A DNA stretch of 56,507 nucleotides from Burkholderiales bacterium (GTDB lineage Bacteria; Pseudomonadota; Gammaproteobacteria; Burkholderiales; Casimicrobiaceae). The DNA is taken from NCBI GenBank assembly GCA_025352105.1, contig JANXUB010000192.1, positions 1-56,507 of the forward strand, written 5' to 3'. Positions 8,619 to 45,963 of the stretch are shown here, one piece after another. The notes beneath the pieces are model-generated. The model was not told the origin of the DNA. It worked only from the letters and a program-made list of their open reading frames with translations, and searched no databases. Position numbers and translations under genes: made by a program. Position 1 is the stretch's first letter. Every line of letters starts with the position of its first letter.

Positions 8619-9788
8619 ATGACCACCAAGAAACCCGAAACGCTCCTGATCCATCCATCACGCGAAGTGCCTGCGGGCTTTCGCTCGTTAGTCACTAGCA
8701 CCGAGCGCGCATCGACCGTGTTGTTCGATAGCGTTGCGAAATGGAAGCAGCGCTCGGGGCTCGATGAGTCGACGTACGTCTACGGCACCGTCGGTACGCC
8801 GACCACGCGTGATCTGCAGAACCGCATTGCCGAATGGGAAGGTGGTTACAACTCGGTGCTTTTTCCGTCGGGGCTTGCGGCTGTTGCGTATGCGTTTTTG
8901 CCGTTCGTCGCGCCCGGTGATCACGTGCTGGTTCCGTCAAACGTGTACGAGCCGGTGAAGTCACTCGCTAGCGGGCTGCTCAAGCAAATGAACGTGGCCG
9001 TTGAATACTACGATCCAGCCATTGGCGCAGGTATTTCCGCGCAGATCAAGGCGAACACCAAACTCGTTTGGGTCGAAACACCGGGTTCGATCACGATGGA
9101 GTTGAGCGATCTTCCCGCCATCGCCGCAGCTGCCCACGCAGCAGGCGCGCTCGTCGCCATCGACAACACGTACAGCGCGGGCTGGTACCTGCGTGCGTTC
9201 GAGAAGGGCGCTGACATTTCGGTGCATGCGCTCACCAAATACCCGGCGGGCCACAGCGATCTGGTGATGGGATCGATCACGACTAAAGACGAAGCGACGT
9301 GGAAGCGCGTGAAGGAAATGGCGTTGCAAACGGGACAATGCGTTGCGCCGGATGACGTGTATCTTGTATTGCGCGGCCTGCCTACGATGCCCATGCGCAT
9401 CAAGCATGCGGAGCGCGTCGGGCTGAATTTAGCCAATTGGCTGAAGACACGCCCGGAGGTGAAAATCGTGCTGCATCCCGCGCTGCCGGACTGCCCCGGT
9501 CACGACATCTGGAAGCGCGATTTCACGGGGTCTACGGGTGTGTTTTCGTTCGTGCTTCAGGATCAGTTTGGCGCGGACGCTGCGGCGCGTTTTATCGACG
9601 CCCTTGAACTGTTCGGTATTGGCGCAAGCTGGGCCGGTATTGGTTCGCTGGCGCTGACCTATGATCTCGCGAAATCGCGAACGAATTGGCCGCATCAGGG
9701 CGCGCTGATTCGTTTGAACATCGGCCTTGAAGATGAGGGCGATTTGCGTGCCGATCTGGAGCAAGGATTCGCGACGCTTGCACTGTAG
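8619..9788 (+). CDS. metC: Cystathionine beta-lyase (PLP-dependent)
   Basis: A 389-residue Cys/Met-metabolism fold-type I PLP enzyme that cleaves cystathionine to homocysteine, pyruvate and ammonia. The PLP lysine is Lys207 in ALTKYPAGHSD, with Asp182 (IDNTYSAG) contacting the cofactor ring nitrogen and a YGTVGTPT N-terminal PLP-phosphate segment. It follows frmB by 21 bp. Its TAG stop (9786-9788) is the first three bases of a palindromic element. Cystathionine gamma-synthase/lyase relatives share this fold, but the sequence style matches the beta-lyase group. Confidence 0.9.
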   Translation: MTTKKPETLLIHPSREVPAGFRSLVTSTERASTVLFDSVAKWKQRSGLDESTYVYGTVGTPTTRDLQNRIAEWEGGYNSVLFPSGLAAVAYAFLPFVAPGDHVLVPSNVYEPVKSLASGLLKQMNVAVEYYDPAIGAGISAQIKANTKLVWVETPGSITMELSDLPAIAAAAHAAGALVAIDNTYSAGWYLRAFEKGADISVHALTKYPAGHSDLVMGSITTKDEATWKRVKEMALQTGQCVAPDDVYLVLRGLPTMPMRIKHAERVGLNLANWLKTRPEVKIVLHPALPDCPGHDIWKRDFTGSTGVFSFVLQDQFGADAAARFIDALELFGIGASWAGIGSLALTYDLAKSRTNWPHQGALIRLNIGLEDEGDLRADLEQGFATLAL

Positions 9789-9851
9789 GAGCGGCTCTGC
9801 CGCGACCACGCCAACCTGTAACAACCGTGGGTCGCGGCGGAGCCGCTCCTA
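9786..9851. repeat. REP-like palindrome, GGAGCGG family, at the metC 3' end
   Basis: Arms at 9786-9807 and 9830-9851 (TAGGAGCGGCTCTGCCGCGA type) pair with one mismatch. The left arm supplies the metC stop codon and the right arm ends just upstream of the glutathione peroxidase Shine-Dalgarno. The same arm type recurs at 10357, 16653 and 45694. Confidence 0.85.
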
Positions 9852-9868
9852 TAAAAAAGGAGAACACC

Positions 9869-10348: not shown

Positions 10349-12219
10349 TGTTGCTCTGTGGGAGCGGTTTCACCGCGAAGGGCGTTGCGTTAGCCGCCCT
10401 TCTTTCGCGGTGGAACCGCTCCCACATGTCCCTCGTCTCGCTGGTAGTCGGCTCGGCGTTGGGCGGTGCGTTTGCAGCCCCTGCGCACGCCGTAAAGACG
10501 CTTAATCTCGCGATCAATGCTGCCGAATCGACGTTTGACCCGGCGGCGAGCGACGACATTCCATCGAGCGATCTCATCGTGATGATGATCGAGCCGCCGT
10601 TGCAGTACGACTACTTTGCGCGGCCCGTCGCGGTAACCTCGCGCACGTCTGAGTTAATCGAATCCTCCCCCGACGGCAAGGCTTATACGCTACGCGTGAA
10701 GCCGGGTATTTTCTTCACGCCTGACGCTGCGTTCAACGGCAAGCCGCGTGAACTAGTCGCGGCTGACTACGTGTATTCGTTTAAGCGCCTTCTGGATCCG
10801 AAGGTCGCCTCACCGTACTACTACCTGTTCGAAAACAAGCTCCTCGGTGCAGAAGTCGCGCGCAAGGACGCAGAAAAAAACGGGCGCTTCGATTACGACG
10901 CGGAGATCGCCGGATTGCGCGCGCTTGATCGCTACACCTTTCGCGTCGAACTCACCAAACCGGCTTTCGAGTTCGTCTACAACTTCACCACCACGTCTTT
11001 CGCGGCGGTTGCGCGTGAGGTCGTCGAGAAATATCGCGATGAACGAAATCGCGTGCGCGAGCACCCGGTGGGCACTGGCCCGTACATGCTCGGTCAGTGG
11101 CAGCGCTCAGCAAAGATTGAGCTGATTCGCAATCCCGGCTATCGCGAAGACTTCGTACCGACGCCAACAACGGACGATGACAAACAACTGGCGCAATCCA
11201 CTGCGGGCAAGCGCGCGCCGTTGATTGACCGAATCGTTGTGACCGTGCTGGAGGAGAGCCTGCCGCGTGTGCTGGCGTTTCAAAACGGTGAGCTTGACCG
11301 GCTGGATGTGCCGCGCGATCTTGGTGATCGATTGTTCGAAAAAAATGCTCTGAAACCTGAATTCAAAGCTAGCGGCATTCGCCATCAGCGCGCGCTCGAA
11401 CCGCTCCTGGGTTTCAATTACTTCAACATGGACGACCCAGTGGTTGGCGGCTATTCTCTTGAGAAAAACGCCTTGCGCCGCGCCATTTTGCTGGGCTACG
11501 ACATGGATCGCGAAATCGCGGCCGTGTTCAAGGGCCAGGCTGAGCTCGCGCAGCAACTCGTGCCGCCGGGATTGTCGGGGCATGACCCAAAGCTCAAGCT
11601 GCGTCCGCCGTACGATCCTGCGCTAGCAAGGGCGTTGCTGGATCGGTTTGGCTACAAGGACTGTGACGGCGACGGTTTCCGCGAAGCACCGGGTTGCAAA
11701 CCGCTCAAAATCACACGCAGCAGCACGGCCGATGGCAAAGGACGATTGCAGGAAGAAATCTGGAAAAAGAGCATGGACGCGATTGGTATTCGCGTTGAAT
11801 TTTTCAGCCAGAAATGGCCCGATCTGATCGAAATGTCGCGCACCGGAAAGCTCCAGATGTGGGGGTGGAGCTGGATCGCTGGCGGGCCGGGTGGGGATGG
11901 CTTTGTGAGCCTGCTTGTGTCGCGCAATATCAACGCGATCAACGACATGAAATTCAATCGGCCGGAATATGACCGACTGTATGACGAAAGCACCACGCAG
12001 CCGCCGGGGCCAGGGCGGGACCGCATCTATCGCGCGCTATCGGAGCTGGCAGCGGCCAACAGCGTGCTCGACTTCGGCATTCACACCTACATGAACGACC
12101 TTTCGCAGCCATGGCTTCTCGGCTACAAGCGACACCCTTTCTGGCGCACGCCGTGGAAATACGTCGACATCGACGAGAACGTGCGTAACGCCGCTACAAA
12201 GGGCAAAGTTTCGCGATAA
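10348..12219 (+). CDS. Oligopeptide-type ABC substrate-binding protein (SBP_bac_5), copy 1, with repeat-encoded N-terminus
   Basis: A cluster C solute-binding protein of 623 residues if started at 10348, or 597 if started at ATG 10426. Family features are the N-terminal TLNLAINAAESTFDPAASDD, the GTGPYMLGQW segment and a C-terminal PWLLGYKRHPFWRTPWKYVD. The first 26 codons are almost wholly a palindromic element (10357-10426). The ATG at 10426 gives a hydrophobic signal peptide ending APAHA but no basic residues; the repeat-encoded part supplies Arg residues and a start coupled to the preceding stop. Neither start has a good Shine-Dalgarno. It is paralogous to the next gene. No permease or ATPase is nearby. 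Confidence 0.85.
   Translation: MLLCGSGFTAKGVALAALLSRWNRSHMSLVSLVVGSALGGAFAAPAHAVKTLNLAINAAESTFDPAASDDIPSSDLIVMMIEPPLQYDYFARPVAVTSRTSELIESSPDGKAYTLRVKPGIFFTPDAAFNGKPRELVAADYVYSFKRLLDPKVASPYYYLFENKLLGAEVARKDAEKNGRFDYDAEIAGLRALDRYTFRVELTKPAFEFVYNFTTTSFAAVAREVVEKYRDERNRVREHPVGTGPYMLGQWQRSAKIELIRNPGYREDFVPTPTTDDDKQLAQSTAGKRAPLIDRIVVTVLEESLPRVLAFQNGELDRLDVPRDLGDRLFEKNALKPEFKASGIRHQRALEPLLGFNYFNMDDPVVGGYSLEKNALRRAILLGYDMDREIAAVFKGQAELAQQLVPPGLSGHDPKLKLRPPYDPALARALLDRFGYKDCDGDGFREAPGCKPLKITRSSTADGKGRLQEEIWKKSMDAIGIRVEFFSQKWPDLIEMSRTGKLQMWGWSWIAGGPGGDGFVSLLVSRNINAINDMKFNRPEYDRLYDESTTQPPGPGRDRIYRALSELAAANSVLDFGIHTYMNDLSQPWLLGYKRHPFWRTPWKYVDIDENVRNAATKGKVSR
10357..10426. repeat. REP-like palindrome at the 5' end of a binding-protein gene
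   Basis: Arms at 10357-10379 and 10404-10426 (TGTGGGAGCGGTTTCACCGCGAA type) pair with one mismatch. The element is open in the reading frame of the downstream gene, and its last base is the A of the candidate ATG at 10426. Confidence 0.85.
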
Positions 12220-16577: not shown

Positions 16578-16652
16578 CGGAGCTCCGGTTCGGCGTGAAG
16601 GGTGGCGCAAAGCATAACGCGAGCGCTTAACGCCCCGATGACAAACGGAATG

Positions 16653-16715
16653 TTGGAGCGGCTCTGCCGCGACACGGTTGCGTTATCGAAGCAGGTCGCG
16701 GCACAGCCGCTCCTA
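16653..16715. repeat. REP-like palindrome, GGAGCGG family, at the VOC gene 3' end
   Basis: Arms at 16653-16673 and 16695-16715 (TGGAGCGGCTCTGCCGCGAC type) pair with few mismatches. The element ends 5 bp from the stop codon of the VOC gene (minus strand), the same gene-end placement as at metC. Confidence 0.85.
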
Positions 16716-16719
16716 CAGG

Positions 16720-45054: not shown

Positions 45055-45963
45055 CTAGCGCTGACACACCGGACAAAACACGGTTGCGCGCCCGCCATGC
45101 CGCATGAGCTTCAGCGGCGTTGCGCAGACTTTGCACGGTTTTTCATCACGGCCATAGACGAAGTAATCGAGCTGAAAATAGCCCGGTTCGCCTGACGTGT
45201 TTACGAAATCGCGCAGGGTTGAACCGCCTGCATTGATGGCCTCAGTGAGCACGGTTTTCACTTCATGCACGAGCTTCGCGTATCGGGCGAGCGAGATGCG
45301 GTTTGCGGCGCGGCTGGGGTGAATGCCTGCACGAAACAGCGATTCGTTTGCGTAGATGTTGCCGACGCCGACGACGAGCGTGTTGTCCATCAGCGCCTGT
45401 TTGATCGGGCCGGTGCGGCGACGGGTTTCGCGATACAGGTGTGCCGCGTCGAGCGCATCCGTCAGCGGCTCAGGGCCGAGATGTGCGAGGAGCGGTTGTG
45501 CCGCGTCTTCACCGTCGAAGAAATGCATCGAACCGAATCGGCGCGGATCGTTGTAGCGCAAAACATAGGGGCCATCGCGCGTGCTTAGATGCATGTCAAC
45601 GTGATCATGTGTTCTTGGTGTGGGCAGTACGTTGGCTTGGTGCGCAACAAAGCTGCCGGTCATACCCAAGTGCACGAGCAGCGTGCCGGAGCCCTGTGGG
45701 AGCGGTTCTACCGCGATTCCCCGTTGCGACGCCAATCGCGGTGGAACCGCTCCCACAGATTCCGGGGCAGCTAGCCGAAAAAGCAGGTACTTGCTGCGGC
45801 GCTCGACCTGCACCAGCGTGAGCCCAGCGAGTTGCGCTTCAAATTCGGGCGGAATGGGCCAGCGGAGCCTGCGATTGCGCACCACGACACCACCAATTTT
45901 GGCCCCGAGGAGGATCGATTCAAGGCCGCGACGGACGGTTTCTACTTCGGGTAGTTCAGGCAT
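45055..45963 (-). CDS. mutM: Formamidopyrimidine-DNA glycosylase with in-frame repeat insertion
   Basis: A 302-residue bifunctional base-excision glycosylase/AP lyase acting on 8-oxoguanine. Pro2/Glu3 (MPELPEVE), Lys58 in the beta-hairpin RRSKYLL, and the C-terminal zinc finger CKVC...CPVC are intact. Residues about 68-92 (SVGAVPPRLASQRGIAVEPL) are extra: they are encoded by a palindromic element at 45694-45758 and fall in the loop just before LLVHLGMTG. Without them the length is near the normal 270-280 residues, so the enzyme is probably functional. Confidence 0.96.
   Translation of the reverse strand: MPELPEVETVRRGLESILLGAKIGGVVVRNRRLRWPIPPEFEAQLAGLTLVQVERRSKYLLFRLAAPESVGAVPPRLASQRGIAVEPLPQGSGTLLVHLGMTGSFVAHQANVLPTPRTHDHVDMHLSTRDGPYVLRYNDPRRFGSMHFFDGEDAAQPLLAHLGPEPLTDALDAAHLYRETRRRTGPIKQALMDNTLVVGVGNIYANESLFRAGIHPSRAANRISLARYAKLVHEVKTVLTEAINAGGSTLRDFVNTSGEPGYFQLDYFVYGRDEKPCKVCATPLKLMRHGGRATVFCPVCQR
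45694..45758. repeat. REP-like palindrome, GGAGCGG family, inside mutM
   Basis: 25-bp arms at 45694-45718 and 45734-45758 (CTGTGGGAGCGGTTCTACCG type) pair with one mismatch around a 15-bp loop. The arm is almost the same as that of the element at 10357. It is open in the mutM frame. Confidence 0.9.

Follow-up and report, generated by a model that had tools for sequence, protein, structure and literature searches.

The mutM locus and its insert

The window analysed here, a stretch of 56,507 nucleotides, corresponds to contig C171; the draft genome from which it comes, G000, amounts to 4.5 Mb in 231 contigs and is 92.6% complete. On its reverse strand the window encodes an otherwise normal formamidopyrimidine-DNA glycosylase (MutM) that carries a short palindrome in frame. 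The features referred to below are:

45055..45963, reverse strand: mutM (fpg), formamidopyrimidine-DNA glycosylase, 302 aa, carrier of the insert (ORF, NCBIfam, Pfam)
45061..45141, reverse strand: C-terminal zinc finger of MutM, residues 275-301, intact (Pfam)
45691..45768, reverse strand: extra segment, codons 66-91, between beta strands 59-65 and 92-98, mostly of low pLDDT (AlphaFold2 model, alignment)
45694..45758, no strand: REPIN (inverted GTRG-type REP dimer) in mutM (pattern search, fold, covariance model)
45695..45716, forward strand: REP arm TGTGGGAGCGGTTCTACCGCGA, 0 mismatches to TGTGGGAGCGGTTCYACCGCGA
45717..45735, no strand: 19-bp REPIN spacer, 15/19 identical to the sister species' spacer
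45736..45757, reverse strand: REP arm TGTGGGAGCGGTTCCACCGCGA, 0 mismatches to TGTGGGAGCGGTTCYACCGCGA
10356..10427, no strand: intergenic REPIN of the same subtype as the mutM copy (pattern and covariance search)
9783..9854, no strand: intergenic REPIN of a sibling subtype (pattern and covariance search)
16650..16718, no strand: intergenic REPIN of a sibling subtype (pattern and covariance search)

The element at 45694-45758 is a REPIN, a dimer of two inverted GTRG-tagged REPs. A preliminary description of this DNA had called it a near-perfect 65-bp palindrome lying in frame in mutM, and both observations are confirmed, the first by the exact agreement of both arms with TGTGGGAGCGGTTCYACCGCGA and the second by the 302-aa ORF, within which the whole element is contained. 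Arm matches to TGTGGGAGCGGTTCYACCGCGA at up to 3 mismatches number 6 in the window (0.00 expected); the insert folded as RNA gives -48.4 kcal/mol, and it scores 74.9 bits (E 4.9e-15) against a REPIN covariance model trained on 25 copies, of which it is one. Rfam matches over the window were confined to two tRNAs. The marks of the GTAG class of REPs are a GTAG or GTRG tag at the foot of a short GC-rich palindrome (PMC3733652), and such a tag accompanies the GC-rich hairpins here, as T-GTGG-GAGCGGTTCCACCGCGA in the mutM arms and as TGTAGG in the sibling subtypes. The kinship with three intergenic elements that the preliminary description had proposed holds in full for the one at 10356..10427; the other two, at 9783..9854 and 16650..16718, are near TGTAGGAGCGGCTCTGCCGCGA, have 3 mismatches to the search pattern and are related only as sibling subtypes.

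The protein that carries the insert has the hallmarks of MutM/Fpg: an N-terminal PELPE, the conserved Lys, an H2TH region, a zinc finger and, by prediction, the Fpg fold. It matches NF002211 of NCBIfam with 335 bits (cut-off 212) and the Pfam domains Fapy_DNA_glyco, H2TH and zf-FPG_IleRS above their cut-offs. P2, E3, K58, M101, R142 and cysteines 277, 280, 297 and 300, which we take to be the catalytic, intercalating and zinc residues, are invariant in an alignment of 57 MutM sequences, as the preliminary description had anticipated in calling the catalytic and zinc-finger residues intact. The AlphaFold2 model (57 sequences; mean pLDDT 89.6, pTM 0.86) resembles E. coli Fpg (1k82; E 3e-32, rmsd 2.2), with residues 71-90 at a pLDDT of about 55 and a short helix drawn at 67-72. 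The insert is thus modelled as a low-confidence segment on an intact Fpg fold and, judging by the motifs and the model, the enzyme with its loop is probably active.

Distribution of the insert among MutM relatives

The stretch of the hairpin between KY and HLGM, usually of 12 residues, is extended to 38 in the insert-bearing MutM. Of the earlier estimate of about 22 extra residues, the 65-bp length of the element itself stands, while the gain in the loop is larger, at 26 columns relative to most aligned MutM. In an alignment drawn from the best 30 loci of 38 matching genomes (40 searched), reduced to 29 by one locus without a readable start, the insert is present in two sequences, our own and that of a sister species (G015), and absent from the other 27. 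Among 80 named MutM loci, a set that overlaps with the first, the loop is readable in 74, and KY-HLGM spans 12-22 residues in 73 of them and 38 in one, which is again the sister. A segment of this kind, with unrelated DNA sequence, is thus not common in the MutM of relatives, being missing from 27/29 and 73/74. In the nearest relatives the loops differ, which prevents the precise unoccupied site from being recognised, and a search of plasmids for MutM added nothing.

The best named match to the G000 protein (85% identity) lies in a metagenome-assembled Burkholderiales record, JANXNI010000061.1, which is the same contig as C35 of G015, and the sister insert therefore has one witness and not two. 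That witness nonetheless makes an artefact of draft or metagenome assembly hardly credible as the origin of the insert, since a separate assembly has it at the identical site and in frame, even if short repeats carry a risk in a draft of so many contigs.

The MutM of a Gallionella MAG (L095, 2001-2918) has an in-frame insert of another kind, in which the 19-residue repeat PPAVPARGMSGVSPQLRCD stands twice in tandem in another loop.

REPINs and RAYT transposases in the genome and genus

REPs are named for being extragenic, and the REPs of G000 are high in copy number, dispersed and presumably mostly intergenic, as is characteristic of the GTAG type. Its arm matches at up to 3 mismatches number 60 forward and 62 reverse, spread over many contigs, with 0 for a reversed-pattern control. 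Covariance searching, in which 150 candidates were scored, gave at least 146 both-strand matches, or at least ~73 places. When 1 mismatch at most is allowed, the arm is present in 7 of 64 family genomes, and all 7 belong to the genus of G000.

A strict REP scan of listed and fetched places provided partial sets of 72 elements for G000, 25 for G015, 39 for G010 and 32 for G014, and it overlooks decayed copies and other subtypes; a permissive scan for single REPs (122 elements in G000, 39 in G015) was too noisy and was discarded in its favour. In the partial set from G000, 57 of the 72 elements contain an inverted REP pair. A long frame spans 10 of the 72, and in 4 of these 10 a recognised gene is interrupted by the element; the remaining elements are presumably intergenic, since no long frame spans them.

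A REPIN is an inverted pair of REPs, and GTAG-tagged REPs are associated with RAYT transposases (PMC3116915, PMC3733652). The genus contains such transposases: REP_Tyr_transpos genes in G010 and G014 score 124.0 and 124.5 bits (NCBIfam cut-off 80) and have TGTAGGAGCGGTTCCACCGCGA on both flanks, and a 51% identical gene of G011 has another GTAG REP on both flanks. No RAYT of this REP-linked type was found in the assemblies of G000 (92.6% complete) or G015 (95% complete), where the best matches to the G010 RAYT are 23-34% identical.

The Y1_Tnp genes of G000 at L031-L034 and L227 (all but C89:3611) were checked for flanking REPs. Four of them (L031, L033, L034 and L227) were rejected as the cognate RAYT, having no such REPs in the surrounding stretch; at L032 a sibling-type REPIN lies ~1 kb from a Y1 fragment. 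The Y1_Tnp locus of the sister (L148, L230) was rejected likewise, as none of these REPs occur there.

The mutM insert thus shares with REPINs the GTRG tag, the GC-rich hairpin, the inverted pair, a variable spacer and tens of dispersed copies, together with a RAYT bearing near-identical flanking REPs, here in genus mates, and it differs in being intragenic and in that a RAYT of that type was not found in the G000 or sister assembly. We regard it as a short and probably mobile DNA palindrome, normally intergenic, that has been turned into an extra in-frame loop of a repair enzyme.

The sister-species copy and the age of the insertion

The junctions and reading frame of the insert in G015 are those of G000, and the DNA around mutM is syntenic between the two (79% identical over ~2.2 kb). 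The inserts agree at 53/65 bases and the rest of mutM at 664/844. The sister palindrome has decayed: the REPIN covariance model still detects it, with 56.1 bits, and its hairpin is the weaker one, at -29.5 versus -48.4 kcal/mol. Between the two species dN/dS is 0.68 for the insert codons and 0.075 for the rest of mutM, and the peptide therefore looks like a weakly constrained loop.

These observations can be accommodated by a history in which a RAYT (TnpA_REP, an HUH/Y1 transposase) would have mobilised in trans a REPIN, as a non-autonomous REP dimer, and the REPIN would have entered MutM where one of its surface beta-hairpins turns, in the ancestor common to the G000 species and its sister. 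The insert would have been tolerated there as a nearly neutral addition, its palindrome later decaying in the sister; its survival could be understood because the length of the turn was already variable, the REP arms have few or no stops in any frame and the frame was kept. We consider this history probable, with one ancestral insertion and an enzyme that kept its activity. The preliminary reading is supported, in that the comparisons with relatives point to a mobile-type palindrome lying in frame in a tolerant MutM loop.

The divergence of the insert does not by itself fit this history in its simplest form. Only 2 of 12 four-fold sites differ between the species within the insert, as against 76 of 141 in the rest of mutM (Fisher P 0.016), and the divergence of the whole insert, 12/65, is far below the 54% at four-fold sites elsewhere in the gene; an old, neutral and vertically inherited insert would not be expected to show this by itself. 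Another four REPINs that occupy orthologous places in both species are identical at 52/65, 57/64, 52/64 and 55/61 aligned bases, figures that leave out gaps and are flattered thereby, and that come from places which may not all be intergenic. Since these are about as alike as the mutM pair, some force would seem to keep REPINs alike or young. At two orthologous places, L190/L216 (in pbpC) and L196/L213, the species have different REP subtypes and, taken together with the likeness of the others, this makes turnover or conversion of REPINs plausible.

If each of the two species had received its own insertion at this target, or if their mutM REPINs had undergone exchange or gene conversion with other REPINs since the split, the mutM loop would be a hot spot and not the site of a single old event. 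The low divergence of the insert relative to four-fold sites and the subtype differences at orthologous places would be explained in this way, as would the different palindromes that fill the UvrA and PBP1C loops of different species (see below). We nevertheless think such recurrent arrival unlikely, given that junctions and frame are identical in both species and that the spacers of the two mutM copies score 11 against each other, where 20,000 shuffles did not exceed 8. Among 84 elements drawn from the two genomes, which form a partial set, no sister element is closer by spacer to the sister's mutM copy than is the mutM copy of G000; a REPIN at another sister locus also scores 11 against the G000 copy and so equals the sister's mutM copy in this respect. 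The choice between one old insertion and a later renewal is not settled, and we claim no clean age for the ancestral insertion that we favour.

In-frame copies in other genes

The mutM insert is one of several genic cases in this genus. In the partial set from G000, 4 of the 72 elements lie in frame in recognised genes, namely mutM, uvrA, the gene for penicillin-binding protein 1C (pbpC) and a cytochrome c gene, so that the further in-frame copies envisaged in the preliminary description do exist. The cytochrome c gene (two haem domains by Pfam, no NCBIfam family above cut-off) is the weakest case, because its linker varies in length among relatives; the linker of the sister cytochrome aligns to the REPIN of G000, with the arms broken. 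The uvrA gene of G000 is of double length, with an open frame of 2,066 aa, and has its REPIN in the first half (L199, 1502-1571; L258, G000:C185). Further along the same gene there is a second, unrelated repeat-like segment, SPSPAARERVPDRAGEGG...

Of the 25 elements in the partial set from G015, one lies in a gene for acetoacetyl-CoA ligase, besides that in mutM, and the pbpC loop of this species is also filled by a REPIN, which was detected by covariance search and alignment and missed by the strict scan. No spanning frame from the strict scan of G010 (39 elements) or G014 (32) has a Pfam family; the pbpC loop of G014 contains a REPIN whose subtype the scan did not include, found by alignment and pattern only. 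The survey compared 24 of 27 spanning frames with Pfam, the other three being the sister mutM and two antisense frames, and it covered subtypes other than TGTAGGAGCGGCTTGCCGCGA. Not counted as genic were 17 frames without a family, together with a symporter (L016) and a kinase (L207) whose domain begins after the element.

The copies in mutM, uvrA and the acetoacetyl-CoA ligase gene share one reading frame, and those in pbpC and the cytochrome c gene share another; with two reading frames among five genes there is therefore no conserved peptide. The main arm is open in 6/6 frames and two sibling arms in 5/6, and whole dimers are modestly more open than their shuffles (3.76 versus 3.11 of 6 frames).

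The alternative that the insert is kept for a function, either because an mRNA or DNA hairpin tunes MutM expression, with a mutator effect, or because the peptide has a role, would gain from the great stability of the G000 hairpin, from the lower synonymous divergence within the insert and from the interruption of a second repair gene, uvrA, in the same genome. We hold it to be quite improbable: the substitutions in the sister weaken the hairpin, the insert dN/dS is 0.68, the segment is mostly of low confidence in the model, and other genes are interrupted as well (pbpC and cytochrome c; acetoacetyl-CoA ligase in the sister). Repair genes contribute 2 of the 4 genic copies in the partial survey of G000, too few to decide on a bias.

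A further REPIN, in G010 (L306, 1465-1545; G010:C46), lies directly past the open frame of what is presumably a TrhO-like gene, with an apparent duplicated gene segment beyond it.

Relation to known elements

The preliminary description had likened the insert to the Rickettsia palindromic elements (RPEs), whose sequence we take to be different from that of the mutM element. The comparison is apt as far as a palindromic repeat lying in frame in unrelated genes and apparently tolerated there is concerned, and fails as an identification: RPEs are ~150 bp long, as against 65 bp, and have one conserved peptide, as against two reading frames here (PMC10969869), and RAYT-type transposases are present in the genus of G000. 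The closest known counterpart is instead the GTAG-type REP dimer, or REPIN.

Intragenic dimers of GTAG/CGTC REPs, encoding 20-30 residues, were described in several species by Di Nocera et al. in 2013 (PMC3733652), and the mutM insert is therefore a new instance of a known phenomenon. Many of the intragenic REPs of that report are in genes of DNA synthesis and repair (uvrA, recB, DNA polymerase I, dnaE2); both uvrA genes of one species are interrupted, as is recB, at roughly matching positions, in two species of Xanthomonas, and a mutator effect was speculated for other repair genes with REPs. The main text of that report mentions neither mutM nor Fpg nor glycosylase, and the titles and abstract openings covered by our literature search yielded no published REP in mutM. 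An in-frame REPIN in a repair enzyme of two sister species, accompanied in their relatives by RAYTs and elsewhere in the genomes by further genic copies, makes this uncultured genus a suitable place to ask whether repeats linked to RAYTs supply proteins with new segments, and whether selection or chance lies behind the accumulation that has been reported for DNA-repair genes.

Loops shared across the genus in UvrA and PBP1C

The UvrA loop was read in 14 of 17 genomes of the genus and the transpeptidase loop of PBP1C in 12 of 17 (L259, G000:C134; L336-L347), with hairpin z-scores each obtained against 100 single-base shuffles. In UvrA, REP dimers of different subtypes are present in G000 and G013, and longer C-rich palindromes, unrelated in sequence to the REPs, in G001, G005, G010, G011 and G014; the loop is longer but without a significant hairpin in G002, G006 and G012, and short in G004, G007, G009 and the sister G015. 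The near-perfect dimer in the G013 uvrA (L263) is the sole match of that genome to its REP pattern (1 forward and 1 reverse at up to 1 mismatch), and two other REP patterns have no match in G013. In PBP1C, REP dimers are found in G000, G002, G014 and G015, imperfect ones in G005 (z -2.7) and G004 (z -1.8), and C-rich palindromes in G001, G010 and G011; no clear palindrome is seen in G007, G012 (possibly a remnant) or G013.

It is conceivable, although we put this forward tentatively and as somewhat less than an even chance, that certain protein loops of this genus (those of UvrA and PBP1C, perhaps also the MutM loop and the cytochrome c linker) are standing in-frame docking sites, at which unrelated palindromes replace one another between species. 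Coding sequence would then be a regular habitat of REPINs, and new protein segments could arise from such loops. The occupation of shared loops by unrelated palindromes in different species of one genus, which we consider the most interesting part of these observations, was not seen in the passages on intragenic GTAG/CGTC REPs (PMC3733652), nor was a description of it found in the titles and abstract openings searched.

Several species have the C-rich palindromes, exemplified by CCCTCCCCC...GGGGGAGGG, as in-frame segments of uvrA and pbpC (L264-L266, L268, L269, L343, L344 and L347).
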